Program-made: the position numbers and the translations under genes | The notes under the pieces: generated by a model | What the model was told of the DNA's origin: nothing | What the model saw: only the letters and a program-made list of their open reading frames with translations | The model's database searches: none | Part shown: positions 5,589 through 24,182 of the stretch, piece after piece | Layout of the letters: each line of letters opens with the position of its first letter | Position numbering within the stretch: the stretch's first letter is position 1 | Assembly (NCBI GenBank): GCA_020047875.1 | Contig: JAIFNE010000199.1 | Location: forward strand, 1 to 32,633 | From: Hydrogenophaga sp. | GTDB taxonomy: Bacteria; Pseudomonadota; Gammaproteobacteria; Burkholderiales; Burkholderiaceae_C | Reading direction: 5' to 3' | DNA: 32,633 nt

Positions 5589-5604
5589 CTGACATTTTTG
5601 GCAG
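5589..5604 (+). promoter_or_regulatory. Putative upstream activator site for the sigma-54 activator
   Basis: CTGACATTTTTGGCAG is a CTGCCA-N4-TGGCAG palindrome with one mismatch, nearly the same as the perfect copy at 14727-14742. More half-sites flank it: CTGCCA at 5579-5584 and CTGCCA at 5611-5616. It lies about 110 bases upstream of the -24 element at 5711, a usual distance for enhancer-binding proteins. The assignment to the activator gene at 13316-14701 is inference from site sharing and gene position. Confidence 0.55.
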
Positions 5605-5708: not shown

Positions 5709-5725
5709 CTGGCACGCTTCTTGTT
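5709..5725 (+). promoter_or_regulatory. Sigma-54 (-24/-12) promoter of the CydA-like/FCSD operon
   Basis: CTGGCACGCTTCTTGTT fits TGGCACG-N4-TTGCW except for the C of the -12 GC. The GG at 5711-5712 is ten bases from the G at 5723, the correct spacing. It predicts a transcription start near 5736 and a leader of about 50 bases before ATG 5788. Confidence 0.65.
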
Positions 5726-5787: not shown

Positions 5788-7191
5788 ATGGACATGATTG
5801 GTCTGTATCCCACCTGGTTCGAGCCGGGCGTGGGCAGCGGCTGGATCGTTGGCTTCATCGCCACGATCCATGTGCTGTTTTCCCACACCTCGGTCGGCGC
5901 GGCGATTTTCTTCGCCTGGCTTGCCAACCACGCGCACCGCCACAACAAGCCCGAGCTGCTGGAATTCATCAAGCGTTACGGCCTGTTCCTGCTGGTGTTC
6001 AGCTACGTGCTGGGTTCCATCACCGGCCCGGGCATCTGGTATTCCACCACCGTGGCCAGTCCGCGCGGCATTTCGGCGCTGATTCACAGCTTTGTCTGGA
6101 TGTGGGCCACCGAGTGGGTGTTCTTCGTGATCGAGGTGGTGGGTGTCTACATGCTGATCTACCTGGTGGGCAAGGTCGACGTGAAGACCCACACGCGCAT
6201 CGCGCTGATCTTTGGGCTGACCTCGTACACCACCATGCTGGTGATCGTGGGCATCCTGAGCTTCATGATGTGGCCGGGCAAGGCTGCCTGGACCGAGACC
6301 GGTGGCGTGCTCAACGCCTTTTACGGTCCCAACACCTTCGCCCAGCTGGGCATGCGCACGGCCTTCATGTTCACCATGACGGCGGTGGTGGGGGGCATCG
6401 TGGCCGGCCAGTTCAAGGACCTCACGCTCAAGAAAAGCATTGCGACCAAGCTGGCCTGGCTGGGCATCGTGGCCACGCTGGTCGGTGCCGCCATGTTGCA
6501 GTGGTATCTGGCCACCTTGCCCGAGACGGCCGACGTGGTGCTGCAGAACCGCCTGCCGGCGCACTTTCCCATGGCGCTGCTGAGTGTGGTGGCGGGTACG
6601 CTGGCGTACTTCATCCTGACGCTGGTGCAGCCGCGCGCGCTGGTTTCCAGCCTGGCGGCAGTCATGACGGTGGTGATTCTGGTGTTCGGCCTCTGGCCCG
6701 AAGAGGTGGCGCGCGAGTCGATCCGCAAGCCGTGGGTGGCCGGGCAGTACGTGTATTCCAACCAGGTGATTGGCCGCGACGTGCCGGGCATGGGCGTGAA
6801 GTCCGAGATTCCCACCATCGAGGCGCACGGTTTCATGAAGACGCTGGTGTTCGTGCCCGAGGCGCTGCGCACCATCGACGATGGCAACCGCGTCGAAGTC
6901 GGTCGACTGCTGGCGCTCAACACCTGCTCCAACTGCCATTCGCTGAGCAGCACCGGCATCCGCCCGCTGCGCAACTATTTCCCCGGCACCCACACCGAGG
7001 CCGAGGTCGCGGAGTACCTGCAGGCTGCGCTTTCGGGTGGCAACACGCTGTACATGCCGCAGATCCCGTTCAACGACGCCGAGGCCCGTGCGCTCGCCAG
7101 TTTCATCCTCACGCTGCCACCTGAGCGCACTACCCGTACCGCCACGGCCACTGCGCAAGCCCCGGTCGGCGCCACCGTGGTCAAGGAGTAA
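5788..7191 (+). CDS. CydA-like membrane protein fused to a C-terminal cytochrome c domain
   Basis: This 467-residue protein has multiple membrane helices over residues 15-325, then a soluble domain with one haem-c site (C380-S-N-C383-H384) and a probable distal Met423 in YMPQ. The first helix has I27-H28-V29-L30-F31, and by eye H28 aligns with the helix-1 haem ligand of CydA (His19 in E. coli). A Glu pair (ATEWVFFVIEVV) lies where CydA carries Glu99/Glu107, but with spacing 7 instead of 8. No Q-loop and no RLVH-type b558 ligand are seen. The start is ATG 5788, preceded by AGGAAGG. I place it in the bd-oxidase superfamily as a cytochrome-c-linked branch. Whether it reduces oxygen or passes electrons between cytochrome c and quinone is unknown. 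The next gene starts 3 bases downstream. Confidence 0.75.
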   Translation: MDMIGLYPTWFEPGVGSGWIVGFIATIHVLFSHTSVGAAIFFAWLANHAHRHNKPELLEFIKRYGLFLLVFSYVLGSITGPGIWYSTTVASPRGISALIHSFVWMWATEWVFFVIEVVGVYMLIYLVGKVDVKTHTRIALIFGLTSYTTMLVIVGILSFMMWPGKAAWTETGGVLNAFYGPNTFAQLGMRTAFMFTMTAVVGGIVAGQFKDLTLKKSIATKLAWLGIVATLVGAAMLQWYLATLPETADVVLQNRLPAHFPMALLSVVAGTLAYFILTLVQPRALVSSLAAVMTVVILVFGLWPEEVARESIRKPWVAGQYVYSNQVIGRDVPGMGVKSEIPTIEAHGFMKTLVFVPEALRTIDDGNRVEVGRLLALNTCSNCHSLSSTGIRPLRNYFPGTHTEAEVAEYLQAALSGGNTLYMPQIPFNDAEARALASFILTLPPERTTRTATATAQAPVGATVVKE

Positions 7192-7194
7192 GAC

Positions 7195-8418
7195 ATGACC
7201 CCTGAAATGCTCTACGCGCTGCGCGACCAGGCTGGCGTACCGTCCCATCCGCTGGTGTTCCTGGTGCTGGGTGTGCTCACTTTCGCGTTGCACATCGCGG
7301 CGGTGCAGGTGATGCTGGGTGCGGCCTCGCTCACGCTGCGCGGCGCCTTCAGCCCCAGCCTGCACTGGCGCCGCCTGGCCCAGGCCATGCTCGTCACGGC
7401 CAAGATCGCGGTCTCGGTCGCCATCGTGATCGGCGTGGCGCCGCTGCTGTTTGTTCAGGTGGTGTACGACCCGTTCTGGTACACGTCCAATGTGCTCTCG
7501 GCCTGGTGGGTGATCGGCTTCATCGTCCTGCTGATTGCCGGTTACATCGCGATGTATGTTTTTTACTGGAAGAACCACGACATCGTGGCAGATGGTGGTC
7601 GCGACGGCGTCTGGATGGTGCTGTCGTTGGTCTTGCTGCTGGCCGTGGGTTTCATCGTGCACAGCCTGACCAACCAGATGCTGTTCCCCGAGCACTGGAT
7701 GGCTTGGTACGCACCCCGCGGCGTGGTCAATCCCGACGGCCACTCGCTGCACTACTGGCATGTGCCACGTTTCCTTTTCTTCATCGGGTTGTCGGCTCCG
7801 GTCACTGGTGCCTGGCTCTTCGGCTACCGACGCTACCTGCAGGGTGGCGGTGAGATCGATGCCGCCTACCTGGGCTGGGTGCGTGGCCTGGCGCAAAACC
7901 TCATGCTCGTTGGTGGCGTGGTCTCGGTGCTGTTCGGGGCGGTCTGGATGCTCACCCTGCCCGAAAAGATGGCCTGGTTCGCCACGTCGGTCTGGATGCT
8001 GATGGCGCTCGTGGCGCTGCTTGCGGTGGTGGCCTTGCCGCTGGTGCTGCGCGAGCGCATCGATGCCGGCGTCTGGGGCTACGCCATCTTCGGCGCCGGT
8101 GCGGCGGGCTTGATCGTGGTGGGCGCGGCGCGCGAGATGCTGCGTTTCGTGACCCTGCTGGGCACGCACGGCTACAACGCCATGGACTACAAGATCAACA
8201 TGGACTGGTACAGCACCGGCCTGTTCTTCACCACCTTCGGCCTGGTCGGTGGTGTGACGCTGGCCTATCTGCTCACCGTGGCTTGGCAGGCCGGCCAGAG
8301 CAAGGGCCTGTACACCCCGAGCCCGGCCGTCACCCGCATTGGCCAGTGGTCGGTCGGCCTGCTCGTGGCCTGGACCGTGCTGTATTTCGCCGTTGGCTTT
8401 TTCGTCTGGGCGCGCTGA
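7195..8418 (+). CDS. Second CydA-like polytopic membrane subunit
   Basis: This 407-residue protein is hydrophobic throughout, with roughly nine or ten membrane helices and no cytochrome c motif. The N-terminal helix contains ALHIAAVQVMLG, whose His falls at the same place as H28 of the preceding protein and the helix-1 His of CydA. The following amphipathic stretch and helices also align loosely by eye with the first subunit. I therefore infer two related CydA-like subunits forming a heterodimer, in place of a CydA/CydB pair. The conserved-looking Glu pair is absent here. It is translationally linked to its neighbours, with 3-base gaps on both sides. The family name is my judgement; it could be recorded simply as a cytochrome-associated membrane protein. 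Confidence 0.6.
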   Translation: MTPEMLYALRDQAGVPSHPLVFLVLGVLTFALHIAAVQVMLGAASLTLRGAFSPSLHWRRLAQAMLVTAKIAVSVAIVIGVAPLLFVQVVYDPFWYTSNVLSAWWVIGFIVLLIAGYIAMYVFYWKNHDIVADGGRDGVWMVLSLVLLLAVGFIVHSLTNQMLFPEHWMAWYAPRGVVNPDGHSLHYWHVPRFLFFIGLSAPVTGAWLFGYRRYLQGGGEIDAAYLGWVRGLAQNLMLVGGVVSVLFGAVWMLTLPEKMAWFATSVWMLMALVALLAVVALPLVLRERIDAGVWGYAIFGAGAAGLIVVGAAREMLRFVTLLGTHGYNAMDYKINMDWYSTGLFFTTFGLVGGVTLAYLLTVAWQAGQSKGLYTPSPAVTRIGQWSVGLLVAWTVLYFAVGFFVWAR

Positions 8419-8420
8419 AC

Positions 8421-8894
8421 ATGAAACACACCGCTTCTTCCTCTGCTGCGCGGCCCGATGCCACCGTCCTGCGCAAAGTCCTGGGCTGGTCGCTGCTGGT
8501 CGCGCTGGGCGCCTCCGGGGCCGCTTCACTGGCCGTGAAGGCCGTGGCACAGACCGCGCCCAAGGCCGCAGCGCCTGCCACCGCAGCGGCGCCAGCAGCT
8601 CCCACACCCACCACCAACCCCCACCCGGCGCCCGCTTCGGTCATGGCACACAGCTGCGCTGCCTGCCACGGCACCAACGGCCAGCTGGGCGACGAGTTCT
8701 TCATGCCGCTGGCCGGCATGCCGGTGCAGCAGTTCGTGCGCACCATGACTGACTTCCGCGAAGGCCAGCGCCCGGCCACGCTCATGGGCCATGTGGCCCG
8801 TGGCTTCACCGATGCCGATCTGAGAGCCATGGGCGAGTTCTTCGCTGCCCAGACACCGCCGGATCTCACCCTTGATGCGAAAGGAACCCGGTGA
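8421..8894 (+). CDS. Membrane-anchored or periplasmic monohaem cytochrome c
   Basis: This 157-residue protein has an N-terminal hydrophobic segment (about residues 22-45), which is a signal peptide or anchor. An Ala/Pro/Thr-rich linker follows, and then one class I cytochrome c domain with C79-A-A-C82-H83. Possible Met ligands lie in FFMPLAGMP and TLMGHVARGF. It sits between the CydA-like subunits and the FccB-like flavoprotein, so a role as electron carrier between them is likely. The start ATG 8421 lies 2 bases after the previous stop. The stop overlaps the ATG of the next gene by one base (TGATG). Confidence 0.85.
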   Translation: MKHTASSSAARPDATVLRKVLGWSLLVALGASGAASLAVKAVAQTAPKAAAPATAAAPAAPTPTTNPHPAPASVMAHSCAACHGTNGQLGDEFFMPLAGMPVQQFVRTMTDFREGQRPATLMGHVARGFTDADLRAMGEFFAAQTPPDLTLDAKGTR

Positions 8895-10249
8895 TGGTCC
8901 ACACACAACACCCTTCGCGCCGCGAATGGCTGGCCCAGGCCCTGGGTCTGCTTTCGGTCGCTGCTGCGCCCTCGCTGGCCTTCGCACAGCAGAGCGCGCA
9001 CATCGTCATCGTCGGCGGTGGCGTCGGCGGGGCCACCGCGGCCAAGTACCTCAAGCTGTTCAACCCGACGATCAAGGTCACGGTGATCGAAAAGAACCCG
9101 GTCTATGTCAAGCCCTACGGCTCCAGCGAAGTGCTTAACCAGCACGCGAAGATGGACGACCTGAACGTCAGCTATGACGCGCTGAGATCGAAGTACGGCA
9201 TCCGCTTCGTGTTCGACACCGTGACCGGTTTCGACCCGGTCACACGCACCGTGAGCACCGCGAGCCGGCAGAAGATCGGCTACGACAAGCTCATCGTTTC
9301 GCCCGGCATCCAGCTCATGTACGAGGCCTACGCCGGCTACAGCGAAGCCGTCGCCCGCACGGCCGTGCCCTCGGGCTGGATTCCCGGTGAGCAGACCGCG
9401 CTGCTGGCCAAGCAGTTGCAGGGCATGCGTGCCGGCGGCACCTTCGTGCTGGCTGCACCACCCAACCCCTACCGCTGCCCGCCCGGCCCGTACGAGCGCG
9501 CCGCGCTCATGACCGAGTGGTTCAGCAAGCACAACCCAACGGCCAAGGTCGTCATCGTCGACCCGAAGGACAGCTTCGTGACCGACGAGACCATGATGCT
9601 TGGCTGGAACCGGCTGTACAACTTCAACCTGCCCGAGGACTACGTCAAGAAGATGTCCGCCGAGGTGGAGGTCAAACAGCACAGCGTCACCAGCATGCTC
9701 AGCTGGGTGCGTGGCAAGGACGGTGGCCGCACGCTGAAGATCGATGCCCGGCAGATGCGCATTGAGACCGAGGCCGAGGTGATCCAGGCCGATGTGATCA
9801 ACGTCATTCCACCCATGAAGGCGGGCCAGGTCGCCATGACGCTGGGCCTGGCCGACGGCAGCGGCTTCTGCCCGGTGGACCGCCGCACGTTTGCCTCCAC
9901 GCTGCAGCCCAACGTGTACGTGATTGGCGACGCCAGCATCGCCGATGCCATGCCCAAGAGCGGCTTTTCGGCCAACACCCAGGCCAAGGTGGTGGCGCGC
10001 GCCATCGTTGAAGAACTGGCTGGCCGCACCGCGCCGGAGCCGCTGTGGGAGAACACCTGCTACGCCCTCGCCGGCAAGGACTACGGCCTCTTCGTGGCCG
10101 ATGTGTTCAAGATCATCGACGGCAAGATTGCCCGCATCAATGGCCAGGGCCGCTACCTGCCGCTGAACGCCACGCCGGCGCAGATCAAGCTGGGCGCGCG
10201 CTATCAGCAGGCCTGGCTGCGAACCTTCACCGCCGACTGCTTTGCCTGA
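8894..10249 (+). CDS. fccB: Flavocytochrome c sulfide dehydrogenase flavoprotein (FccB/SoxF-like), non-covalent FAD variant
   Basis: FccB oxidises sulfide in the periplasm and passes electrons to its cytochrome c partner. The protein starts with a twin-arginine signal (SRREWLAQALG), then the dinucleotide-binding motif IVIVGGGVGGATAAKYLK. C195 in RCPPGPYERA and C389 in ENTCYALAG match the redox disulfide of Allochromatium vinosum FccB (Cys161-Cys337). VIGDASIADAMPKSGFSAN is the second FAD-contact region. Where A. vinosum has Cys42 in TCYLSNEV as the covalent flavin attachment, this protein has P74 (KPYGSSEV), so FAD is probably bound without the thioether. ATG 8894 has an AAGGAA upstream; a GTG 3 bases earlier is possible. 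The dihaem partner follows 10 bases later. Confidence 0.88.
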   Translation: MVHTQHPSRREWLAQALGLLSVAAAPSLAFAQQSAHIVIVGGGVGGATAAKYLKLFNPTIKVTVIEKNPVYVKPYGSSEVLNQHAKMDDLNVSYDALRSKYGIRFVFDTVTGFDPVTRTVSTASRQKIGYDKLIVSPGIQLMYEAYAGYSEAVARTAVPSGWIPGEQTALLAKQLQGMRAGGTFVLAAPPNPYRCPPGPYERAALMTEWFSKHNPTAKVVIVDPKDSFVTDETMMLGWNRLYNFNLPEDYVKKMSAEVEVKQHSVTSMLSWVRGKDGGRTLKIDARQMRIETEAEVIQADVINVIPPMKAGQVAMTLGLADGSGFCPVDRRTFASTLQPNVYVIGDASIADAMPKSGFSANTQAKVVARAIVEELAGRTAPEPLWENTCYALAGKDYGLFVADVFKIIDGKIARINGQGRYLPLNATPAQIKLGARYQQAWLRTFTADCFA

Positions 10250-10259
10250 AGGAACGCAC

Positions 10260-11048
10260 ATGCAACACGATCCCTACCTGCAAGAGCTGACCGCCGTGAC
10301 GAACGGCCTGTTTCATCGCGCCCGGGTGGCCTTGGCCATCGGCGTGACGGGGCTGCTCATGGGCCTGGCGGCCGACCCGGCCCACGCCACCGACCACGCG
10401 GCCGCACCGTCGGCCAAGGCCTGGACCCCTGCCAGCCTGCGCGGCGCGCTGGCGGCCCTGCCCAAAGGCGATGCCGAACGCGGCCGCGTGGTCAACCAGC
10501 AGCTGTTCTGTGCCTCTTGCCACGGTGAAAACGGCGTGGCGCCGACGCAGAACTGGCCCCATCTGGCCGGCCAGAAAGCCGCTTACACCGCCAAGATGTT
10601 GCTTGACTATCAGAGCCGCTTGCGGCTCGAGGGCAAGCGGGCCGAGCTGATGCACAACATCGCCGTGATGCTGACGCCGCAACAGATCGCCGATGTGTCG
10701 GCGTTCTACGCCAGCCTGCCGGCGCCCGGTGACGATGGCACGCCACGCCCGCCCCCCCGCGGGGAAGGCATGAGCGCCGCGCAGCTGGTTCGCAAGGGTG
10801 ACCCCGCACGCCTGCTCACGCCTTGCGCCAGCTGCCATGGCGTGAAAGGTCAGGGCGGCAAGCTCGAAGCCTCGGCCCTGGCCGGACAGAACCCGCTGTA
10901 CTTCACCCGCACCTTGCTCGATTACCAGAGCGGCGTGCGCGCGAACGACGCGGCCAAGGGCATGAGCACGTTTGCGAAAAAGCTCACGCGCGGTGAGATC
11001 GAGGCGCTGGCGGCCTACTACGCCGATCTGCCCTCACGCAACCAGTAA
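10260..11048 (+). CDS. Dihaem cytochrome c, FccA-like partner of the sulfide dehydrogenase
   Basis: This 262-residue exported protein has a hydrophobic signal region (about residues 27-50, ending AHA). Two class I cytochrome c domains follow, with haem motifs C84-A-S-C87-H88-G and C189-A-S-C192-H193-G. The two halves are alike (HLAGQKAAYTAKMLLDYQS and ALAGQNPLYFTRTLLDYQS), which shows internal duplication as in the dihaem FccA subunit. Tandem dihaem cytochromes of the c4 type share this layout, so the FccA role rests on its position just after fccB. The start is ATG 10260 with AAGGA at 10249-10253; a TTG at 10242 in frame lacks support. Confidence 0.82.
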   Translation: MQHDPYLQELTAVTNGLFHRARVALAIGVTGLLMGLAADPAHATDHAAAPSAKAWTPASLRGALAALPKGDAERGRVVNQQLFCASCHGENGVAPTQNWPHLAGQKAAYTAKMLLDYQSRLRLEGKRAELMHNIAVMLTPQQIADVSAFYASLPAPGDDGTPRPPPRGEGMSAAQLVRKGDPARLLTPCASCHGVKGQGGKLEASALAGQNPLYFTRTLLDYQSGVRANDAAKGMSTFAKKLTRGEIEALAAYYADLPSRNQ

Positions 11049-11058
11049 CGTGCGGCCC

Positions 11059-11661
11059 ATGAGCTTCTGGGACCAGAACTTTTCAATCGCTGGCTACAAG
11101 TACGGCACTGCGCCGAACGCCTTTCTGGTCGAGCAGCAGGGGCGCTTCAAGCCCGGTGGCGATGTGCTGGTGCCGGGGGACGGTGAAGGCCGCAACGGTG
11201 TCTGGCTGGCCCAGCAGGGGCATCAGGTTACCGCCATGGACGGCTCTGCCGTGGGCCTGAACAAGGCGCAGTCGCTCGCGACCGAGCGCGGCGTTCTCCT
11301 GCGCACCGTGCTCGGCGACCTCGCCGACTGGACGCCAGAGCCGGTCCGTTTCGATGCGCTGGTACTGGTCTTCGTGCACCTGCCAACCGCCATCCGCGCC
11401 GGGGCGCACAGGCGCTTGGCCGCGGGCTTGCGCCCGGGGGGCTGGCTGCTGGTGGAAGGCTTTCATCCGCTTCAACTGCAGCATCGAAGCGGCGGCCCCA
11501 AGGACCCGAGCATGCTGTTCACCCCCGAGCTGTTGCGGGCCGATTTTTCTGGCTTGCTCGACGAGCGCCTGGCCTGGCAGGGGGAGGTGGTGCTGGACGA
11601 GGGGCTAGGGCACCAGGGGTTGGCGCACACCACACGCTGGCTCGGTCAGGTCCTGGGCTGA
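11059..11661 (+). CDS. Class I SAM-dependent methyltransferase (TehB-like)
   Basis: This is a 200-residue soluble protein. It has a Rossmann-like SAM site, with VLVPGDGEGRNGVWLAQQGH as motif I and TAMDGSAVG as the acidic strand-2 end. FDALVLVFVHLP and LRPGGWLLVEGFHP are motifs typical of small TehB/thiopurine-type methyltransferases. The N-terminal W-D-Q-N-F region is also characteristic. It starts 10 bases after the dihaem cytochrome stop and is probably in the same transcript. The substrate cannot be read from the sequence. Methylation of a thiol or chalcogen compound would fit the operon, but that is only inference. Confidence 0.8.
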   Translation: MSFWDQNFSIAGYKYGTAPNAFLVEQQGRFKPGGDVLVPGDGEGRNGVWLAQQGHQVTAMDGSAVGLNKAQSLATERGVLLRTVLGDLADWTPEPVRFDALVLVFVHLPTAIRAGAHRRLAAGLRPGGWLLVEGFHPLQLQHRSGGPKDPSMLFTPELLRADFSGLLDERLAWQGEVVLDEGLGHQGLAHTTRWLGQVLG

Positions 11662-11682
11662 CGGGCTGCTTCTGCCTGCACA

Positions 11683-11709
11683 ATGCCATCCATGCCATCC
11701 ATGCCATCC
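11683..11709 (+). repeat. Three tandem 9-base repeats holding start codons
   Basis: ATGCCATCC occurs three times in direct tandem at the 5' end of the DUF3422 gene and encodes Met-Pro-Ser repeats. Gain or loss of a unit would keep the frame but change the number of start codons. Confidence 0.9.
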
Positions 11710-13029
11710 CAACCTCCTGATTTTCGTTGCTTGCCAGCCGACGATGTCCTGCGCATCGAGTTGCACAACGAGGTGCATGCACGCCCGTCGGCGCGCATCC
11801 GCTTGCCGGCGCTGGTGGTGTTTGTCGCGGTGTTCAACGATGGCGTAACCCGGGAGCAGGAGTGTGAGCACCTGCGGCGCCTTCCGGGCCAGGAAGGTTT
11901 GACGCCCGCCGACCTGCAAGGTCACTTCCTGCGCTTGCGACTGCCAGGCTGCACCCTCAAGTGGGAGCGTCACACCGAATTCAGCCGCTACTCACTGGTG
12001 CAACCCCTGCCCGAAGGGGCTCGGCCAGGTTTGGGCGACCCTGAGTTGCTGTCGCAACTGGTGCTGCCGGCCGACTGGCTGGCCACGATCCCGGGGCGCA
12101 CCTTCGCCGCCATCAAGCTCATCATGCTGTATGGCGACCTGAGCGAGCCGCAGCAGACCTTGGCGCTGGCACGCACGTGGCTGAGCGAGCACACGGTGGT
12201 GGCCTCTCAGATGGGCAACAACAGCCACTCCATCGTCGTCACCGATTTCTTGCTGCGCGACAGCGGCTTCGAACGCATGCTGGTGGTCGCGCCGCCCGAC
12301 ACCACCGAGACCCGCGCCGGCCGCGTCTCCCAACGCCTGCTGGAAATCGAGACTTACCGCCTGATGGCCTTGCGCGGCCTGCCGGTAGCCAAGAAGCTGG
12401 GCCGGCTGCTCGCGGAGAGTGAGCGCCAGCTGGCCGACATCACCGCGCAACTGGAGAACAAGGGGGCGAGCGACCAGGCTCTGCTGGATACGCTGGTGTC
12501 GCTGGCTGCCGGTGTGGAGCGGGCCATTGCCGAGCACGCTTACCGCTTTTCGGCCACCCGCGCGTATGACGCGCTGGTGACGCAGCGCATCACCGAGCTG
12601 CGTGAGCGACCTATTCCAGGCACCCAGACCATCGGCGAGTTCATGCAGCGCCGGCTCTCGCCGGCCATGGGTACCGTGGCCGCCACCGGGCAGCGCCTGA
12701 CCTCGCTGTCCGAGCGCATCAGCCGCGCCAGCGCCCTGCTGCGCACGCGGGTGGATATCGCCACCGAGGTGCAGAACCAGCAACTGCTGGAGAAGCTGAC
12801 CCGCGGGCAGGAACTGCAGCTGCGCCTGCAGACCACGGTGGAAGGCCTGTCGATCGCGGCCATTTCTTACTACGTGGTCAGCCTGCTGCTGTATCTGGGC
12901 AAGGCGGGCAAGGCTGCTGGTCTGCCGCTGAATCCGGAAATTCTGGCTGGGGCCTTTATTCCGCTTGTGCTGTGGGGCGCGTGGCGCACCACGCGACGCA
13001 TCCACGAGAAGCTGCGCGGCCCGGGTTGA
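11683..13029 (+). CDS. DUF3422 family membrane-anchored protein
   Basis: This 448-residue protein is of the DUF3422 type. It carries the family's N-terminal HNEVHARPSARIRLPAL motif, a central alpha-helical region with many Leu/Glu/Arg residues, and two hydrophobic C-terminal helices (about residues 383-405 and 418-436). The family's function is unknown to me; the C-terminal helices indicate a membrane anchor. The first 27 bases are three copies of ATGCCATCC, so three in-frame start codons are available. It begins 21 bases after the methyltransferase and may be the last gene of that transcript. Confidence 0.85.
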   Translation: MPSMPSMPSQPPDFRCLPADDVLRIELHNEVHARPSARIRLPALVVFVAVFNDGVTREQECEHLRRLPGQEGLTPADLQGHFLRLRLPGCTLKWERHTEFSRYSLVQPLPEGARPGLGDPELLSQLVLPADWLATIPGRTFAAIKLIMLYGDLSEPQQTLALARTWLSEHTVVASQMGNNSHSIVVTDFLLRDSGFERMLVVAPPDTTETRAGRVSQRLLEIETYRLMALRGLPVAKKLGRLLAESERQLADITAQLENKGASDQALLDTLVSLAAGVERAIAEHAYRFSATRAYDALVTQRITELRERPIPGTQTIGEFMQRRLSPAMGTVAATGQRLTSLSERISRASALLRTRVDIATEVQNQQLLEKLTRGQELQLRLQTTVEGLSIAAISYYVVSLLLYLGKAGKAAGLPLNPEILAGAFIPLVLWGAWRTTRRIHEKLRGPG

Positions 13030-13315: not shown

Positions 13316-14701
13316 TCAGGATGCCGGGGGCATGTTTGTCGAATCCAGCGACTTGATTTTTCGGTACAGCGAGCGCTCGCTGATGCCCATCTTGGCCGCC
13401 AGTTCGGCCCGGCTACCGGTGTGCGCCGCGAGCGTCGCGCGCAGGGCGGTTTGTTCCAGGGCCTTGAAATCGGTCACCGATCCCGCGGGATTGTCGGTGG
13501 TCAAGGCCGCCGATGGCCGTTGGGCCGGCGGGCGGGTGGTACCAGCCGGGCGGCGGCCGGTGTCGATGGCCCGCTGCACATGCTCGGCCTCGATCAGGTC
13601 GCCGTCACACAGCAGTGCGGCGCGTTCCAGCAAATTGCGCAGCTCGCGCACATTGCCGGGGAACGCTTGCGCGCTGAGCAGTCTCAGAGCCGAGGTGCTC
13701 AGGCGCAGGTGGCGCGGCGCTGCCACACGCTCCAGCAGCGAGGGCGCCAACAGCGTCACATCGCCTGCCCGATCGCGCAGGCTGGGCAACCGGATCGGAA
13801 ATATCGATAGCCGGTAGTAGAGGTCCTCTCGGAAGCGGCCGTCTGCCACCATCTGGTCCAGGTCGCGGTGGGTGGCCGAGACGACGCGGATGTCGGCATG
13901 GCGCAGCTCGGTGCTGCCCACGCGGCGGTAAGTGCCCGTCTCCAGCAGGCGCAGCAACTTGACCTGCATGGGCAGCGGGATGTCCCCGACCTCGTCCAGA
14001 AACAGCGTACCGCCGCTGGCCGCCTCCACCAGCCCGCCCTTGGCGGCGTTGGCGCCGGTGAATGCGCCACGCTCATGGCCGAAGAGTTCGGATTCGAACA
14101 GGGTCTCGGGCAGGCTGGAGCAGTCCACCGCCACCAGCGGCTTGCCCGCGCGCGGACTCGCCTCGTGCAGGGCCCGCGCCACCAGCTCCTTGCCAGTGCC
14201 GGATTCGCCGAGCAGCAAAACGGTGGCGCGCGAGGGTGCGGCCCGCGCCACCAGGGCCAGCATGGCCTGAAACGCCTCCGACCGCCCGATCAGTCCCTGT
14301 GCTGCCGGTTGGCCCTGGGCCACGCGCAGCGGCTCCATCTTTTCCACGAAGAATGCGGGCTCACCGTCGGGGCCTGGCAAGGGCGAGAGCTCGATGTTCA
14401 CGTATTCCTCGCCTTGGGTGGTGTGGTGCAGGTGCAGCACACGCTCGCGCTGGCGCGAGGCGAGCGACCGCGCCAGCGGGCAGGACTCCCCGGCCTGATC
14501 GCAGGGCACTGAAAAGTGGTGCGAGACCTCGTAGCAGGTGCGGCCGACCACATCGCGCTGGCCGCCATAGGCGCGCCGATACGCCGCGTTCGCAGCGAGG
14601 ATGCGGTACCGCGCATCGAAGAGGATGTGCGGTTCGGGCAGGCCTTCGAGAAAGGCCGTGAGTTCGGGCAGGGGTTTCAATGCGGGTTCCTGGGCAGGCA
14701 A
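13316..14701 (-). CDS. Sigma-54-dependent activator with PAS sensor and Fis-type DNA-binding domain
   Basis: This 461-residue enhancer-binding protein remodels sigma-54 RNA polymerase using ATP. Residues about 15-125 form a PAS domain containing C56-x10-C67-x6-C74 ([19 protein letters not shown]) and H61-H62, a possible redox or metal site. The AAA+ domain follows, with Walker A GESGTGKE (165-172), the sigma-contact loop GAFTGA (212-217), Walker [12 protein letters not shown] and the arginine-rich FREDLYYRL segment. The C-terminus has a Fis-type helix-turn-helix ([22 protein letters not shown] region). There is no receiver domain, so it is probably controlled directly by its PAS signal. It is divergent from cioA. 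A perfect palindrome, 26 bases before its start codon, may also autoregulate it. Confidence 0.92.
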
Positions 14702-14726
14702 AAAGGGGCAGTCTGCGCGCCATTTT

Positions 14727-14742
14727 CTGCCAAAAATGGCAG
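14727..14742 (+). promoter_or_regulatory. Putative upstream activator site (perfect palindrome)
   Basis: CTGCCAAAAATGGCAG has 6-base arms and an AAAA centre. A further TGGCAG half-site is at 14755-14760. It is about 90 bases upstream of the cioA sigma-54 element and just upstream of the divergent activator gene. A one-mismatch version lies upstream of the sulfide module at 5589-5604. Confidence 0.6.
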
Positions 14743-14785
14743 TTTTGGCGGAAGTGGCAGAGCGGGCTCTGACGGGTCTTCGCTC

Positions 14786-14798
14786 AACACCTTTGATT
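14786..14798 (-). promoter_or_regulatory. Weak IHF-like site between activator site and cioA promoter
   Basis: On the minus strand, AATCAAAGGTGTT keeps AATCAA, but the TT pair is shifted by one base from the WATCAANNNNTTR consensus. Its position, between the palindrome and the sigma-54 promoter, matches that of the perfect site at 5669-5681. Confidence 0.3.
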
Positions 14799-14826
14799 CC
14801 ATTGCACTTATCCGCCTGCGGTCGCG

Positions 14827-14842
14827 CGGCACGGATCTTGAT
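14827..14842 (+). promoter_or_regulatory. Sigma-54 promoter of the cio operon
   Basis: CGGCACGGATCTTGAT fits TGGCACG-N4-TTGCW apart from the first T and the C of the -12 GC. GG (14828-14829) is ten bases from G14840, the correct spacing. Like the copy at 5709-5725, it has a base other than C after the -12 G. Confidence 0.55.
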
Positions 14843-14951
14843 AAGTCATTGGTGATGAATGTCCCCTGTTTCCAGCAGCGCCGTCCCCGTGTGGGGCGGT
14901 TCCGGTGGCCAGCGGAACTGCGCGAACCCTGAATAACGCAAGGACCCCGAT

Positions 14952-16374: not shown

Positions 16375-17379
16375 ATGAACATCGATCTGACCCTCATCTG
16401 GGCCCTCATCATCATGGTGGCCGTCTTCATCTACGTGGTGCTTGACGGCTTTGACCTGGGCATTGGCATCCTGTTCAACACCTTCGAGGTGGGCCACGAC
16501 CGCGACACTGCGATGAACAGCATCGCGCCGGTGTGGGATGGCAACGAGACTTGGCTGGTGATGGGTGGCGGGGGTTTGCTCGCGGCATTTCCACTGGCCT
16601 ACGGTCTGATTTTCTCTGCGCTGTATGCGCCCATCATCGCCATGCTGCTGGCGCTGGTGTTTCGTGGCGTGGCGTTCGAATTCCGCTGGCGCGACCCGGC
16701 CCACCGAGGCTTCTGGGACCTGGCTTTCACCGGTGGATCACTGCTGGCCGCGTTCGCGCAAGGCGTCATCCTGGGCGCACTGCTGCAAGGTGTGGCCATC
16801 AGCGAGCGGGCGTACGCCGGCGGCTGGTGGGACTGGCTCACGCCCTTTTCGCTGCTCACCGGTGCGAGTGTGGTGGTTGCCTATGCACTGCTGGGTGCCA
16901 CCTGGCTGGTGATGAAGACCGAGGGTACGTTGCAACGCCAGGCCCGTTCCATGGCCTGGTGGCTGGGTGCTGCCACGCTGGCGGCCATCGTCGCGGTCAG
17001 CATCGCCACCTTGTTCCTCAGCGCCGACTACTTCAGGAACTGGTTGAACTGGCCCAATGTCCTGTGGGTGGCACCGGTGCCGGTGCTGGTGGCATTGGCC
17101 AGCCTGGCCTTTGTGCGCAGCCTCAAAGCGGGGCAAGAGACGGCGCCCTTCCTGCTGGTGCTGGGCGTCTTCCTGTTGTGCTTCGTGGGTCTGGGCATCA
17201 GCGTCTTCCCCTACATCGTGCCGGGAGCGGTCACGATCTGGGACGCAGCCACCGACCGAAGCGGGCAGGTCTTCATGCTCTGGGGCACAGCCCTGGTGTT
17301 GCCGATGATTCTGGGCTATACGGCCTGGTCGTACTGGGTGTTCCGCGGCAAGGTGACTTCGGACGGATACCACGCATGA
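16375..17379 (+). CDS. cioB: Cyanide-insensitive bd-type quinol oxidase subunit II
   Basis: This 334-residue polytopic CydB/CioB subunit supports the haem subunit without binding haem itself. It has the CydB start (LTLIWALIIMVAVFIYVVLDGFDLGIGIL) and the typical SIAPVWDGNETWLVMGGGGLLAAFP motif. FSALYAPIIAMLLALVFRGVAFEFR and the late FPYIVPGAVTIWDAA segment are also present. It starts 10 bases after cioA with GGGGAG as ribosome site. Its stop overlaps the next start (ATGA). Confidence 0.96.
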   Translation: MNIDLTLIWALIIMVAVFIYVVLDGFDLGIGILFNTFEVGHDRDTAMNSIAPVWDGNETWLVMGGGGLLAAFPLAYGLIFSALYAPIIAMLLALVFRGVAFEFRWRDPAHRGFWDLAFTGGSLLAAFAQGVILGALLQGVAISERAYAGGWWDWLTPFSLLTGASVVVAYALLGATWLVMKTEGTLQRQARSMAWWLGAATLAAIVAVSIATLFLSADYFRNWLNWPNVLWVAPVPVLVALASLAFVRSLKAGQETAPFLLVLGVFLLCFVGLGISVFPYIVPGAVTIWDAATDRSGQVFMLWGTALVLPMILGYTAWSYWVFRGKVTSDGYHA

Positions 17380-17540
17380 AAACCCATCGCCTGCGCTGGC
17401 CGGAGATTGCTGATGTCCCCCGCGACGAGACGCCGCAGCCCTTGTGGCGGCGGCTGCTCTGGATGGCGGGGATCTGGGCAGCCACCATTGGCGTGCTGTT
17501 GCTCGTGTCCATGCTGTTGCGCCTGGTGCTCAAGCCGTAG
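17376..17540 (+). CDS. Small single-helix oxidase subunit (DUF2474/CydX-like)
   Basis: This 54-residue protein begins at an ATG overlapping the cioB stop. It has a basic N-terminal part, then PLWRRLLWMAGIWAATIG leading into one membrane helix (about residues 29-51). The pattern and the position after cioB match the DUF2474 family of accessory peptides of CIO-type bd oxidases, analogous to CydX in assembling or stabilising the enzyme. Confidence 0.85.
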   Translation: MKTHRLRWPEIADVPRDETPQPLWRRLLWMAGIWAATIGVLLLVSMLLRLVLKP

Positions 17541-17611
17541 GACGCCATTCAAGAGGTGCCGCATGCCATGCACTCACCTCACCCGCCACTGCCCATCACA
17601 AGGAGCCGAAC

Positions 17612-18229
17612 ATGCATCCCACACAGACACTTCCCCAACCCGTCGTACCCAGCGACCCGCAGCGCCGCACCTGGCTTCTGACCAGCAGCGCGATGGGCGT
17701 TGCCGCCACAGCTGCCGTGGCGGTGCCCTTTGTCTCCAGCTTCGCCCCCAGCGAGCGGGCCAGGGCACAGGGCGCGAGCGTGTCGATGAATCCAGCGGAT
17801 GTGGCGCCCGGCGAGATGAAGACCGTGGAGTGGCGCGGCCAGCCGGTTTGGGTGATGCGCCGAACACCCGAGATGCTGGCCACCCTGGACGGCATGCAGG
17901 GGCTGGCTGACCCAGACTCCCAAGCGAAGCAACAGCCTGCCTACGCGGCCAATACACACCGATCCATCAAGCCCGAGCTGTTCGTGACGGTCGGTATCTG
18001 CACGCACCTGGGCTGCTCGCCGGTGACGCTGAAGCAGGGCACCAGCAACCCCAGCGTGCCGCCCGACTGGCAGGGCGGCTTCTTCTGCCCGTGTCATGGG
18101 TCCACCTTCGATTTCGCCGGCCGTGTGTTCAAGAACAAGCCTGCGCCGACCAACCTGGTCGTGCCTTTGCACAAGTACCTTGCCGACGGCACCCTGCTGA
18201 TCGGCGAGGACGACAGCGACGCAGCCTGA
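17612..18229 (+). CDS. Orphan Rieske 2Fe-2S protein with Tat signal
   Basis: This 205-residue protein resembles the bc1 Rieske subunit. It has a twin-arginine signal/anchor (QRRTWLLTSSAMGV and following hydrophobic residues 26-44). The cluster-binding boxes are C130-T-H132-L-G-C135 and C159-P-C161-H162-G-S, which give the two Cys, two His and the disulfide. Genes for cytochrome b and c1 do not follow, so it is not in a bc1 operon here. Instead it follows the cio genes by 71 bases, with AAGGAG at 17600-17605 before ATG 17612. It may be a second Rieske for a bc1 complex encoded elsewhere, or a stand-alone electron carrier. Confidence 0.92.
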   Translation: MHPTQTLPQPVVPSDPQRRTWLLTSSAMGVAATAAVAVPFVSSFAPSERARAQGASVSMNPADVAPGEMKTVEWRGQPVWVMRRTPEMLATLDGMQGLADPDSQAKQQPAYAANTHRSIKPELFVTVGICTHLGCSPVTLKQGTSNPSVPPDWQGGFFCPCHGSTFDFAGRVFKNKPAPTNLVVPLHKYLADGTLLIGEDDSDAA

Positions 18230-18247
18230 TTCCTGGTGGAGAACAGC

Positions 18248-18376
18248 ATGTGGTCTTCTCCCCAGTGGCTCGGCGGCGGTATTGTGTCGAGCTTCGCTCG
18301 TTGGCACGGGTGGCTTTCGGGCTTGGCTGGCCTGACGGTGTTGCTGTTGGCGCTCCGGCTGCGCGGGGAAGGCTGA
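18248..18376 (+). CDS. Predicted 42-residue single-helix membrane peptide
   Basis: A short frame starts at ATG 18248, with GGTGGAG about 10 bases upstream, and ends at TGA 18376. It encodes a peptide with W-S-S-P-Q-W at the start and one hydrophobic helix, GLAGLTVLLLALRL, near the C-terminus. It fits tightly between the Rieske gene (18 bases) and the next gene (1 base), which supports translation. I do not recognise a family. A small partner of the Rieske protein or the oxidase is plausible. Confidence 0.55.
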   Translation: MWSSPQWLGGGIVSSFARWHGWLSGLAGLTVLLLALRLRGEG

Positions 18377-18377
18377 G

Positions 18378-19043
18378 ATGTTGTTTCGCATCCTCCACGA
18401 TGAGAGCGGTGGCGAGATGAGCTACCTGTTGGCCGACGTCGATGCACGTGAGGCGGTGGTGGTGGACCCTCACGGCCCCGATCTGCCGGTTTTGCAGGCA
18501 CTGCTGGCCGAGCGGGATCTGCGCCTGCGCTGGGTGCTGCGCACGCACCACCACGACGACCTGCAACCATCGGAATTTCCCTCGCTGTGCCAGCTGGGCG
18601 CCCCGGTGGTCCAGGGTGATCCGCGCCCCGGTGCTCACGCCGTGGCCGACGGCGATTTGCTGCCGTTCGGCAACGAGTTCCTGCAGGTGTTCGCAACCCC
18701 GGGCCACACGTCCGGTTGCCTCAGTTTCGTCTGGCGCGACCGGGTGTTTTGCGGTGGCCTGCTGGCGGTGGATGCCTGTCCGCACCAGCCCCGGCCTGCG
18801 CACCCCGCCGCGTTGTGGGACAGCGTGACGCAGCGCATTTTCACCTTGCCTGACGAGACCCTGCTGTTCGCGGGCCACGAGCGCCACGCACGCGCGGTGA
18901 GCACGGTGCAAGAACAACGGCGCTGGCACCCCTTCTTTGCCGCGACCTCGCGCGACACGTATCTGGCGCGCATCGCAACCTTGGCGGCGCAGGCAGACCA
19001 CCGGCACAGCGCAGCGGAGCGACCGCTCGATCAGCTGGCCTGA
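18378..19043 (+). CDS. Degenerate ETHE1-like metallo-beta-lactamase-fold protein
   Basis: This 221-residue protein has the MBL fold and resembles persulfide dioxygenases (FRILHDESGGEMSYLLAD start, VVVDPHG, TPGHTSG, FAGHERHA). Several metal ligands are altered. The HxHxDH motif reads H57-H-H59-D-D61-L, so its last His is lost. The Asp expected after the second sheet (F-x-G-D) is G127 (FCGGLL). H110 and the C-terminal GHE His remain. In ETHE1 the single iron uses two His and that Asp, so this protein probably lacks the standard activity unless D132 replaces it. It starts 1 base after the small membrane peptide gene. Confidence 0.75.
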   Translation: MLFRILHDESGGEMSYLLADVDAREAVVVDPHGPDLPVLQALLAERDLRLRWVLRTHHHDDLQPSEFPSLCQLGAPVVQGDPRPGAHAVADGDLLPFGNEFLQVFATPGHTSGCLSFVWRDRVFCGGLLAVDACPHQPRPAHPAALWDSVTQRIFTLPDETLLFAGHERHARAVSTVQEQRRWHPFFAATSRDTYLARIATLAAQADHRHSAAERPLDQLA

Positions 19044-19100
19044 TCGGGCACACACCAACACCGCTTTCACCCACCTTTCCACTTAACTTTCGGAGCCACC

Positions 19101-19490
19101 ATGAAGCAGCTGCATTTCCAGGAAAAGTACCCCATCACTGTGGTCGACATCGCCAAGGCCGAAACCCGGTTCGAGAGCGCAGCCGCCATTGCCGATTACT
19201 TCAAGGCCTGCATCGCCGACACGCCTCGCGTCCAGTACATCGCCACCTTCGATCACTTGGCCCATACCCAGGCCATCGGTGGCGATGTCTCCCCTCAGAT
19301 CCAGGCCGCCATGAACGTGGTGTTCTGCTTCGGCCATGCGCTACCCAACCCGCAGGTTCTGGCGGTGCGTCCGCGCAGCATCGGTGTTGCCGACATGGGC
19401 GACCATTTCGTCATCAGCTTCATGGACGCACCCATGAAGCCTGCCAACGATGCCATGCAAGCGTGGGCCCTGGCCCTGCGGAACCGGTGA
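19101..19490 (+). CDS. Conserved hypothetical protein (DUF6858-like)
   Basis: This 129-residue soluble protein starts at ATG 19101 with CGGAG upstream. It has no signal peptide or membrane helix. It begins K-Q-L-H-F-Q-E-K-Y-P-I and contains FDHLAHTQAIGG and VVFCFGHALPNPQVLAVRPR. I recall similar small proteins next to respiratory or sulfur genes in other bacteria, possibly labelled DUF6858, but I am unsure of the family number. No function can be given. The context is a redox gene series between an MBL-fold protein and a membrane transporter. Confidence 0.7.
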   Translation: MKQLHFQEKYPITVVDIAKAETRFESAAAIADYFKACIADTPRVQYIATFDHLAHTQAIGGDVSPQIQAAMNVVFCFGHALPNPQVLAVRPRSIGVADMGDHFVISFMDAPMKPANDAMQAWALALRNR

Positions 19491-19554
19491 ATACCCTCGC
19501 CGCGTTGCGTGGGTTTGCGCCCAGACCTTTGAAAATGAACAACAGGAAATGATC

Positions 19555-20550
19555 ATGTGGAACGTCCTGAACTGGCTGCAGAAACACCTGGTCTGGAGTA
19601 TCCCGCTGGCCATGCTGGGCGGGCTGGGTTTCGGTCAGCTCGTCGACCCCGGTTTCCTGCGCTCGGCCATCTTGCCGCTGACCTTCCTCATGGTCTATCC
19701 CATGATGGTCACGATGAATGTGCGCGAGTTGCTCAAGCCCGGCGGGGGCAAGCTGCAGGGCACCACGTTGGCCATCAACTTCGTGGTCCTGCCGGCCATC
19801 GGCTATGCGGCTGGTCTGGTGTTCTTTGCCGACCAACCCATGGTGCGGCTGGCGCTGCTGCTCACCGCGCTGCTGCCCACCTCGGGCATGACCATTTCCT
19901 GGACCGGTTTTGCCAAGGGCAACGTGCCCGCGGCGGTGAAGATGACCGTGGTCGGGCTGATTGCCGGATCTCTGCTCGCGCCGGTCTACCTCAAGGCGCT
20001 GCTCGGCACGGTGGTCGAGATCCCGGTGCTGCAGGTGTTCGGGCAGATCGCGCTCATCGTGTTCCTCCCGTTGCTGCTGGGCACGATCACCCAGCGCTGG
20101 CTGATCGGTAAACACGGCGAGCCGCACTTCAACCAGAAGATCAAGCCCAGGTTTCCGCCGATCTCCACGCTCGGTGTGCTGGGCATCGTGTTCGTGTCCA
20201 TGGCGCTGAAGTCGCAGGATATTTTTGCCCAGCCTGCGCTGTTGCCCGGATTGCTGCTTCCGCTGGTGTTGCTGTACGCGCTCAACTTTGCCCTCAGCAC
20301 CCTGGTCGGCAAACTCTTCTTTCAGCGTGGGGACGCCATTGCACTGGTTTACGGCACCGTCATGCGCAACCTGTCGATCGCCCTGGCAATCGCCATGGGC
20401 GTCTTCGGAGCCCAGGGGGCCGACGCTGCGCTGCTGATCGCACTGGCCTACATCGTGCAGGTGCAGGCCGCCGCGTGGTACGTCAAGCTCACCGACCGCC
20501 TGTTCGGCCCGCCACCGAATGCGCCCGGCGCAGCGGCCAAGGCTGGCTGA
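19555..20550 (+). CDS. Bile acid:sodium symporter / Acr3-type transporter without the arsenite cysteine
   Basis: This 331-residue membrane protein has about ten helices of the BART superfamily, which includes bile acid:Na+ symporters and Acr3 arsenite efflux. Its overall pattern (PLTFLMVYPMMVTMNVRELL, FVVLPAIGYAAGLVFF, ALLLTALLPTSGMTISWTGF) is Acr3-like. In Acr3 the equivalent helix has a conserved Cys in a P-C-T-A-M-V-F-V-W context; here it reads P-T-S-G-M-T-I-S-W. Arsenite transport is therefore doubtful. The start ATG 19555 is favoured by AGGA seven bases upstream; ATG 19549 is too close to it. The substrate is unknown, an organic or sulfur anion being possible. Confidence 0.8.
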   Translation: MWNVLNWLQKHLVWSIPLAMLGGLGFGQLVDPGFLRSAILPLTFLMVYPMMVTMNVRELLKPGGGKLQGTTLAINFVVLPAIGYAAGLVFFADQPMVRLALLLTALLPTSGMTISWTGFAKGNVPAAVKMTVVGLIAGSLLAPVYLKALLGTVVEIPVLQVFGQIALIVFLPLLLGTITQRWLIGKHGEPHFNQKIKPRFPPISTLGVLGIVFVSMALKSQDIFAQPALLPGLLLPLVLLYALNFALSTLVGKLFFQRGDAIALVYGTVMRNLSIALAIAMGVFGAQGADAALLIALAYIVQVQAAAWYVKLTDRLFGPPPNAPGAAAKAG

Positions 20551-20594
20551 GTTCCGCTTCCTGCAGGTTCAACCCTTTTGAAAGGACGCATGGC

Positions 20595-21032
20595 ATGGAC
20601 AACGCCGCTGCTCAAACCACCTACCACACGCTCGGTGGCGCCGAAGGCATCCACCGCCTGGTGGACCGCTTTTACGAACTCATGGACGAACTGCCCGAGG
20701 CCCACGCCGCTCGCCGCCTCCATCCCGAGAGTCTGGCCGGCGCCAACGAAAGCCTGTTCGAATTCCTCTCGGGCTGGTTTGGCGGCCCCAACCTTTACAT
20801 CGAAAAAAAGGGCCATCCGCGTCTGCGCAGGCGGCACTTGCCGTACGCCATTGGCCCGACCGAGCGCGATGAGTGGATGCTGTGCATGCGCACAGCACTG
20901 AACGAACAGGTGTCAGACGAGGGTTTTCGGGCCGCGCTGATCAAGACCTTCTCTGACATGGCGGATCACATGGTCAACACCGAGGGTCGGGAAGGCTGCG
21001 GCCACGCATTGCACGACCGCGCCCCAGCATGA
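20595..21032 (+). CDS. Group II truncated haemoglobin
   Basis: This 145-residue 2-over-2 globin is of the TrHbO (group II) type. The diagnostic stretch GHPRLRRRHLPYAIGPTERD holds the proximal His, followed by W-M-L-C-M-R-T-A-L with the G8 Trp of group II. The early region YHTLGGAEGIHRLVDRFYELM is also typical. Such proteins bind O2, NO or sulfide, and are linked to oxidative or nitrosative protection. AAAGGA precedes ATG 20595. The stop overlaps the next ATG (ATGA), so the small exported protein downstream is co-translated. Confidence 0.92.
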   Translation: MDNAAAQTTYHTLGGAEGIHRLVDRFYELMDELPEAHAARRLHPESLAGANESLFEFLSGWFGGPNLYIEKKGHPRLRRRHLPYAIGPTERDEWMLCMRTALNEQVSDEGFRAALIKTFSDMADHMVNTEGREGCGHALHDRAPA

Positions 21033-22460: not shown

Positions 22461-24182
22461 TCATTCCGCAAGCGTGGTGATTGCCTGGTGGTGCGTCAGG
22501 AAGACCTGACCGCTGAGATGTTGCAGGAAATCGCTGCGCTGCAGGCGGTCCATCACCGGTCCTTTCACCTCGCTCAGGTGCAGTTTCACGCCCGCATCCT
22601 GCAGGCGTTGCGCGATGGTCTCCAGGCTCTCCAGCGCGCTGGCGTCGATGTCGTTGATGGCGGTGCACTGCAGCACCACGTGCGCAACGGACGGGTATGC
22701 GGCCACCTGTGCAGCGATGTGGTCTTCCAGGTAACGGGCGTTGGCGAAGTACAGGCTTTCATCCACGCGCAGGCCCAGTATGCGGGGGTGTGTTTGCACC
22801 GCGTGGCGCAACACATTTCGGTAGTGTTCGGTGCCAGGCACGCGGCCCACGGTGGCGATGTGCGGGCGGCTGGTGCGCCACAGGTACAGCAGCAGCGAGG
22901 TGCCGACGCCGGCCATCAGTCCGGCTTCCACACCGATCAGCAGCGTGAGCGAGAAGGTGAGGGCCAGCGCAGTGAAATCGGCGCGTGCGTAGCGCCAGGT
23001 GCGCGCAAAGGCGCCGAAGTTCACCAGTGTGAGCACGGCCACCACGATGGTGGCGGCCAGGGTGGCTTGCGGCAGGTAGTGCAACGCGGGCGTGAGCAGC
23101 AGTGCTGCCAGCAGCAGACCCAGCGCGGTGTATACCCCGGCAGCCGGCGTTCGCGCACCGGCTTCGAAGTTCACCACCGAGCGGGAGAAACCGCCGGTGA
23201 CCGGGAAGCCGCCGGTCAGGCCCGCAGCGATGTTGCTCGCACCGAGGGCGCGCAGCTCGGCGTCTGGCTCGATGCGCTCGCGCCGTTTGGCCGCGAGCGA
23301 CTGGCCCACCGAAACCGATTCGACAAAACCGACCAGGCTGATGAGCAGCGCAGCGGTTGCCAGCTGCTGCAGCTGCGGCCACAGGCTCGCATCGAGGATC
23401 GGCAACGTGAGCGGCGGCAGTCCGACGGGCACCGCGCCCACCACGCGCAGTCCGCTCTGGTCGAGCTGCAGCGTCCAGGCCAGCAGGGTGGTGACGGCCA
23501 GCGCCAGCACCGGCGCGGCCTTGGTGATCACGTCGGCAGCGACCGGCCCCAGGCCGATCCGACGCAGCAGGCCTTTGAGCGAGCGCCGCACCCAAAACAG
23601 AAACGCCAGCGCACCGCCGCCGATCGCCAGCGTGGGCGCGTGCAGCTGGTGCGCGTGTTGCCACAGGCTGGGCAGCAGCTCGGGCAAGGTTTGCCCCTGC
23701 AGCGGAATGCCCAGCAAGTGCTTGAGCTGGCTGGCGGCGATCAGCAGTCCCGAGGCCGACACAAAACCCGAGATGACCGGGTGGCTCAGAAAGTTGGCCA
23801 CCATACCCAGGCGCAATACGCCCATAGCGAACAGCATCACGCCGCTGAGCAGCGCCAGCAGCGAGGCCGCGGCGACGTAACCCAGGCTGCCCGATGTGGC
23901 CACCGTGCCGAGGGCTGCGGCCGTCATCAGCGAGGTGACGGCCGCCGGGCCCACGGCGAGTGCGCTGCTGGTGCCGAACAGGGCGTACAACACGAGCGGC
24001 GCCATGCTGGCGTAGAGGCCGGCTTCGGGCGGCATGCCTGCCAGCAACGCATAGGCCAGGCTCTGCGGGATCAGCATCAGCGTGACCACGGCAGCGGCCA
24101 CGGCATCGGCGCCGAAGTGTTCGGCGCGGTACTGCTTGCCCCAGCGCAGGATGGGCAACCAGTGGGACAGCGCGTGCTTCAT
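22461..24182 (-). CDS. SulP-family anion permease with STAS domain
   Basis: This 573-residue inner membrane transporter is of the SulP (SLC26) family, which includes sulfate and bicarbonate permeases. It has the signature AAAVVTLMLIPQSLAYALLAGMPPEAGLYAS near residue 30-60. GGFPVTGGFSRSVVNFEAGARTP is the conserved loop near residue 300. A C-terminal STAS domain (about residues 440-570) contains VVLQCTAINDIDASALESL. It starts 10 bases after the stop of the persulfide dioxygenase gene, so the two form an operon. Export or import of sulfate or sulfite from sulfur oxidation would suit this pairing, but bicarbonate transport cannot be excluded. Confidence 0.93.
   Translation of the reverse strand: MKHALSHWLPILRWGKQYRAEHFGADAVAAAVVTLMLIPQSLAYALLAGMPPEAGLYASMAPLVLYALFGTSSALAVGPAAVTSLMTAAALGTVATSGSLGYVAAASLLALLSGVMLFAMGVLRLGMVANFLSHPVISGFVSASGLLIAASQLKHLLGIPLQGQTLPELLPSLWQHAHQLHAPTLAIGGGALAFLFWVRRSLKGLLRRIGLGPVAADVITKAAPVLALAVTTLLAWTLQLDQSGLRVVGAVPVGLPPLTLPILDASLWPQLQQLATAALLISLVGFVESVSVGQSLAAKRRERIEPDAELRALGASNIAAGLTGGFPVTGGFSRSVVNFEAGARTPAAGVYTALGLLLAALLLTPALHYLPQATLAATIVVAVLTLVNFGAFARTWRYARADFTALALTFSLTLLIGVEAGLMAGVGTSLLLYLWRTSRPHIATVGRVPGTEHYRNVLRHAVQTHPRILGLRVDESLYFANARYLEDHIAAQVAAYPSVAHVVLQCTAINDIDASALESLETIAQRLQDAGVKLHLSEVKGPVMDRLQRSDFLQHLSGQVFLTHHQAITTLAE

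Follow-up and report, generated by a model that had tools for sequence, protein, structure and literature searches.

The locus and its features

The window, i.e., the whole stretch of 32,633 nucleotides of Hydrogenophaga DNA analyzed here, carries two operons that are each preceded by a sigma-54-type promoter: one begins with the cioAB genes of a cytochrome bd oxidase, and the other encodes a module with a flavoprotein of the flavocytochrome c sulfide dehydrogenase (FCSD) type. A regulatory gene diverges from cioA, and a palindrome lies upstream of each promoter (Table 1). CioA is of the short Q-loop (CIO) type, as its residues 316-319 span residues 313-381 of Escherichia coli CydA, with the motif GRQPW kept. 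The region after cioAB (17444-21032) encodes a Rieske-type protein, an MBL-fold protein, a DUF6858 protein, an SBF transporter, and a bacterial globin. In addition, a DUF3422 gene (10972-13029) lies near the activator gene in several relatives as well, and in two loci (L080 and L081) is directly divergent to it.

Table 1. Features of the window, with coordinates and strand
Feature	Coordinates	Strand	Remarks
Second palindrome, CTGACA-TTTT-TGGCAG	5589..5604	.	before the FCSD module
Sigma-54-type promoter TGGCACG-CTTC-TTGTT, TGGCACGCTTCTTGTT	5710..5725	+	FCSD-module operon; -12 base T (5724)
Membrane protein with C-terminal c-haem motif (CSNCH)	5788..7191	+	first gene of the FCSD module
Second membrane protein of the FCSD module	7195..8418	+	
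Small cytochrome c	8415..8894	+	CAACH motif
FCSD-type flavoprotein	8891..10249	+	
Dihaem cytochrome c	10254..11048	+	two CxxCH motifs
FisR-family activator, PAS_4 / AAA+ / Fis-type HTH	13319..14701	-	divergent from cioA
Palindrome CTGCCA-AAAA-TGGCAG	14727..14742	.	TGNCA half-sites at 14728 and 14737, spacing 9 bp
TGGCA, third TGNCA half-site of the cio-side array	14755..14759	.	
Sigma-54-type promoter CGGCACG-GATC-TTGAT, CGGCACGGATCTTGAT	14827..14842	+	cio operon; -12 base A (14841)
cioA, cytochrome bd oxidase subunit I, short Q-loop	14952..16364	+	
cioB, cytochrome bd oxidase subunit II	16375..17379	+	
Rieske-type protein	17444..18229	+	upstream start uncertain; homologues in divergent operon of many relatives
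MBL-fold protein	18378..19043	+	homologues in divergent operon of many relatives

The activator

Judged by its sequence, the activator is a FisR-family sigma-54 enhancer-binding protein: it matches PF00158 at E 9e-69 and PF02954 at E 3e-6, and it combines an AAA+ domain carrying the GAFTGA motif with a C-terminal Fis-type HTH. Its PAS domain has three cysteines, C56, C67, and C74, in the arrangement C-x10-C-x6-C, which are kept in every activator homologue where this part could be read. We take this spacing to be that of C53, C64, and C71 of FisR. FisR itself is described, in passages of PMC9774590, as sensing reactive sulfur species via three conserved cysteines. Because the neighbor in the window is cioAB and not the pdo-sqr pair that FisR adjoins and activates, the assignment holds at the level of the FisR family and does not make the protein an orthologue of Cupriavidus pinatubonensis FisR.

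The alignment indicates that the true start of the activator may be a TTG at about 14680. No sigma-70-like promoter was found for its gene; by its position next to the palindrome, the activator may also regulate itself. In another genome of the genus (L037, G281), the activator frame has an internal TGA, and neither the half-site array nor the divergent operon is present, an apparent case of decay.

Palindromes and promoters in the window and the draft genome

An earlier note on this DNA had described a perfect palindrome upstream of cioA and a near copy of it before the sulfide module, and both descriptions agree with the sequence. The arms of CTGCCAAAAATGGCAG (14727-14742) are perfectly complementary, while CTGACATTTTTGGCAG (5589-5604), once reverse-complemented, agrees with CTGCCAAAAATGGCAG at 15 of 16 positions, and at 11 of 12 in the arms. 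The distance from the -12 base upstream to the palindrome center is about 106 bp on the cio side, with the array at a matching distance in orthologous loci, and about 127 bp on the FCSD side; the FCSD-side array has four sites, namely the palindrome and TGCCA at 5580 and 5612. Allowing up to 3 mismatches, the whole window contains two matches to the palindrome (query included; 0.40 expected), the second with one mismatch.

Genome-wide scans were made by pattern search in the draft genome, which is fragmented, comprises 2.25 Mb, and is 59.5% complete. The bare palindrome (arms, at most 1 mismatch) occurs at 13 places in it, versus 10 for a control pattern, so that the palindrome alone is not special. 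Only the two copies in the window precede a sigma-54-type promoter, whereas the other 11 all fall within long open frames and have no sigma-54-like site in their vicinity; for this reason, the palindrome was rejected as a genome-wide marker of a regulon. About 11 background palindromes per 2.25 Mb correspond to about 5e-4 per upstream stretch of 110 bp, which puts the probability that both promoters have one by chance at about 3e-7.

Regarding the promoters, both read GG-N10-G followed by A or T where C is usual, i.e., the GG at -24 and the 10-base spacing are present and the GC at -12 is replaced by GA or GT. The sigma-54 consensus of D. vulgaris is tGGcacg/tTGCt (PMC4641369), and the window promoter deviates from consensus at the first T of the -24 element and at -12. 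A search of the draft genome for the extended promoter YGGCAYGNNTCTTGW gave three exact matches, two of which are the window promoters; the third, on contig C200, was rejected because it lies inside a ribosomal-protein (rplX-like) gene. Another sigma-54-like promoter of the draft genome, TGGCACGGTGCTTGCA (L226, G000 C144:4104-4117), precedes a gene for a TRAP-type binding protein and has four scattered TGNCA sites upstream. It was not counted, having a canonical TTGCA and no CTGCCA palindrome.

Sulfate-permease, persulfide-dioxygenase-like, and peroxiredoxin genes stand in a row on the minus strand of the window (22461-25856). Neither array nor promoter was seen in the sequence read upstream of the pdo-like gene (24193-25113) and of the preceding peroxiredoxin gene, and the pdo and SulP genes were on this ground rejected as further targets.

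A half-site array conserved among activator homologues

Strong homologues of the activator (roughly at least 50% identity) occur at about 60 places in 301 genomes of the family, and the comparison covered 60 regions from these genomes together with 80 named loci from genome contigs. In many of these loci the divergent operon is cydAB. Divergent cioAB genes occur in the window, in Acidovorax benzenivorans (L098), and in two gammaproteobacteria (L131 and L132), where the activator adjoins cioAB followed by pdo-sqr; other loci have divergent Rieske, CcoG, or MBL-fold genes. The activators of a more distant, sister group, including that of Cupriavidus basilensis (L143), stand beside pdo-sqr.

Footprinting across relatives, suggested in the earlier note as a check, revealed that orthologues keep both a divergent sigma-54 promoter, present at most loci, and an array of TGNCA/CTGCCA half-sites; some orthologous loci have no recognizable promoter or array. 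The 57 upstream regions compared contain 319 TGNCA sites, versus 110 expected from dinucleotide shuffles. In promoter-aligned sequences the density of TGNCA, starting at about 0.08 per 20 bp, reaches 1.3 per 20 bp in the interval 100-140 bp upstream of -12. Sigma-54 enhancers (UAS) typically have repeated sites at about -80 to -200 that are conserved among orthologues, a pattern that these arrays fit. Spacings near 9-10, 19-21, and 31 bp are preferred, and a strict 9-bp tandem array was rejected because the two longer spacings are favored besides the 9-10 peak.

Across about 100 homologues, the putative operator consists of clustered TGNCA half-sites, which read CTGCCA when oriented. The cyd/cio/FCSD group prefers inverted pairs 8-9 bp apart, whereas the pdo-sqr group prefers direct repeats; the layout of the operator seems to have changed between the groups, with direct-repeat CTGCCA at the loci of the pdo-sqr activators (L082-L093, L116-L143). 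The complete CTGCCA-N4-TGGCAG unit is kept in Hydrogenophaga sp. NFH-34 (L095) and in one more genome (G209, L036). The expectation that the palindrome persists wherever the gene pair does held only in part: A. benzenivorans retains the activator-cioAB pair and the array but not the exact 16-bp palindrome. On these sequence comparisons, a TGNCA half-site array is the better description of the putative recognition unit, and the palindrome is one arrangement of this array.

The FCSD module as a probable second target

Neither membrane protein of the FCSD module (5788-8418) has a Pfam match at E 0.001, and the two may represent an undescribed membrane partner of FCSD. The likeness of the first protein to solved structures is weak and confined to its C-terminal cytochrome c part, and relatives of it were found in 10 of 301 genomes.

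Orthologues with 77-89% identity in four genomes (G026, G153, G214, and G118) are preceded by the same class of promoter and a TGNCA array. The activator is directly divergent to the module in one of them (G118, L069) and is located elsewhere in the genome in the other three. In G250, the Rieske-like gene that diverges from the activator is followed downstream by the module, apparently in one operon. By contrast, module homologues in G050, G166, and G245 have neither array nor promoter, and no close orthologue of the activator was found in these genomes. This comparison is a small natural control, made on genomes that are not mutually independent. That module orthologues carry array and promoter even where the activator is encoded elsewhere supports the earlier proposal that one regulator links the two operons.

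In G153, L184, and L188, the first gene of the module is split as though by an insertion, with residues 18-200 on one piece and residues 267-479 on another about 2.9 kb away; it retains promoter and array.

The base at -12

For counting the base after TTG, only (T/C)GGCA(C/T) and TTG were required of a promoter. In the close group (n = 42) this base is A in 30 promoters, T in 6, C in 4, and G in 2, and TC precedes TTG in most of them; of 15 promoters of more distant homologues that do not belong to the pdo-sqr groups, 13 have C. Joining the close group with the pdo-sqr promoters of Burkholderiales, A outnumbers C by 39 to 8, versus 38 to 96 for exact-pattern sites in 40 related genomes, a contrast whose Fisher p of 8e-11 overstates the evidence because the promoter rows share ancestry. 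The earlier note had called the missing C of the two -12 elements a shared oddity. The C is indeed lacking, but its absence is lineage-wide (TTGA/T in 36 of 42) and, as far as these promoters can be read, is a character of their lineage.

Phylogeny and a possible exchange of the oxidase

A tree of 108 activators was built by a quick method and rooted at the midpoint only. In it, the window activator groups beside that of L035, whose operon encodes a long Q-loop cydAB, cio operons appear in three places, and the pdo-sqr group with C. basilensis (L143) lies across a well-supported fork. The neighboring position of the cydAB-linked activator and the scatter of cio operons suggest that the oxidase was swapped behind a conserved operator and promoter.

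We lean, with modest confidence, toward a broader reading, in which FisR-family activators of Burkholderiales and Pseudomonas would use a distinct sigma-54 class (TGGCAYG-NNTC-TTGA, with A at -12 and TC before TTG) together with a helically phased CTGCCA array. One branch would serve the respiratory chain rather than the detoxification of persulfide, with sulfide directly selecting the terminal oxidase, and cydAB would have been exchanged for cioAB with the operator unchanged.

A proposed circuit and its alternatives

The sites and promoters, the domain make-up of the activator, conservation, and the gene neighborhoods can be read from the DNA. On this basis we consider it probable that an activator of the FisR family, responding to sulfane sulfur, turns on together a bd oxidase resistant to sulfide and a periplasmic module that oxidizes sulfide. 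Sulfide entering the cell would give rise to sulfane sulfur (polysulfide or persulfide), which the three cysteines of the PAS domain probably sense. The activator is predicted to bind the CTGCCA/TGNCA clusters about 100-150 bp upstream of the two promoters and, by DNA looping, to open the sigma-54 polymerase at TGGCACG-NNTC-TTG(A/T). As a result, cioAB would be induced along with the Rieske and MBL-fold genes to supply a quinol oxidase that resists sulfide, and the FCSD/cytochrome operon would be induced simultaneously for sulfide oxidation. Against this circuit speak the deviations of the promoter from consensus and the orthologous loci with no recognizable promoter or array. A search for rpoN in the draft genome also found none, although the draft is 59.5% complete and 19 of 20 genomes in the relatives set have the gene.

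The same circuit could instead answer another signal, such as cyanide, nitric oxide, or a redox or metal cue, with cioAB as its main target. The protection that bd oxidases give extends beyond sulfide to cyanide, NO, and metals (Chromobacterium CioAB, PMC11837568), and in many relatives the activator is paired with Rieske or CcoG genes, neither of them specific to sulfide; however, the recurrent association of the activator with pdo-sqr and FCSD genes speaks for sulfur, as does its cysteine motif of the FisR type, and we regard a different signal as rather improbable. It appears very improbable that a different regulator reads the arrays and that the adjoining activator gene controls something else, as the arrays follow this gene across families and changing target operons and are absent from homologous modules where no close activator was found, even though four scattered TGNCA sites accompany an unrelated sigma-54-like promoter of the draft genome. 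Finally, a chance likeness of two palindromes and two weak promoter matches would fit the missing genome-wide enrichment of bare palindromes but is hardly credible given the footprint in about 100 loci, the conservation of the promoter columns, and the fact that the remaining palindrome copies are all coding and have no promoter.

Relation to known systems

One of the nearest known counterparts is FisR of C. pinatubonensis JMP134 (Li et al. 2017, doi 10.1111/mmi.13725), which, in the passages of PMC9774590 and PMC7315123 that describe it, shares with our activator the domain make-up, the three cysteines of the regulatory domain, and sigma-54 dependence. According to these passages its target is pdo-sqr, whereas the targets in the window would be a bd oxidase and an FCSD/cytochrome module. 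FisR relatives beside pdo-sqr, such as the C. basilensis homologue (about 52% identity to the window activator), have the CTGCCA half-site and the TTGA-type promoter in common with the window but favor direct over inverted pairs.

Acinetobacter baumannii FisR is likewise a divergent sigma-54 activator of a sulfide-oxidation operon, in the passages of PMC7315123 that treat it; these also describe bd oxidases as refractory to sulfide and cydAB as sulfide-induced, an induction that they do not assign to FisR. Unlike the window activator, this FisR lacks the cysteines and yet responds to sulfide, so the cysteine motif by itself does not prove the signal. In Chromobacterium violaceum, protection against sulfide and cyanide comes from a bd oxidase that is also under dedicated control, but CioR, encoded in the cioAB operon, is a repressor of the MarR family (PMC11837568); the words sigma and FisR are absent from that paper. 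In a literature search with subscription papers outside its reach, we found no report of FisR or sigma-54 directly controlling a bd oxidase. FisR is a known kind of regulator, while its respiratory targets and the promoter class described here look new.

Implications

Sulfide is known to raise the expression of bd oxidases, and the passages on A. baumannii name no regulator assigned to cydAB. The FisR-family activator, its operator, and its class of promoter can now be read across dozens of genomes, where direct control of both an oxidase and a sulfide-oxidation module is predicted. Moreover, promoters with a conserved A at -12 provide a natural test of the reasons for the usual C at this position of sigma-54 promoters.
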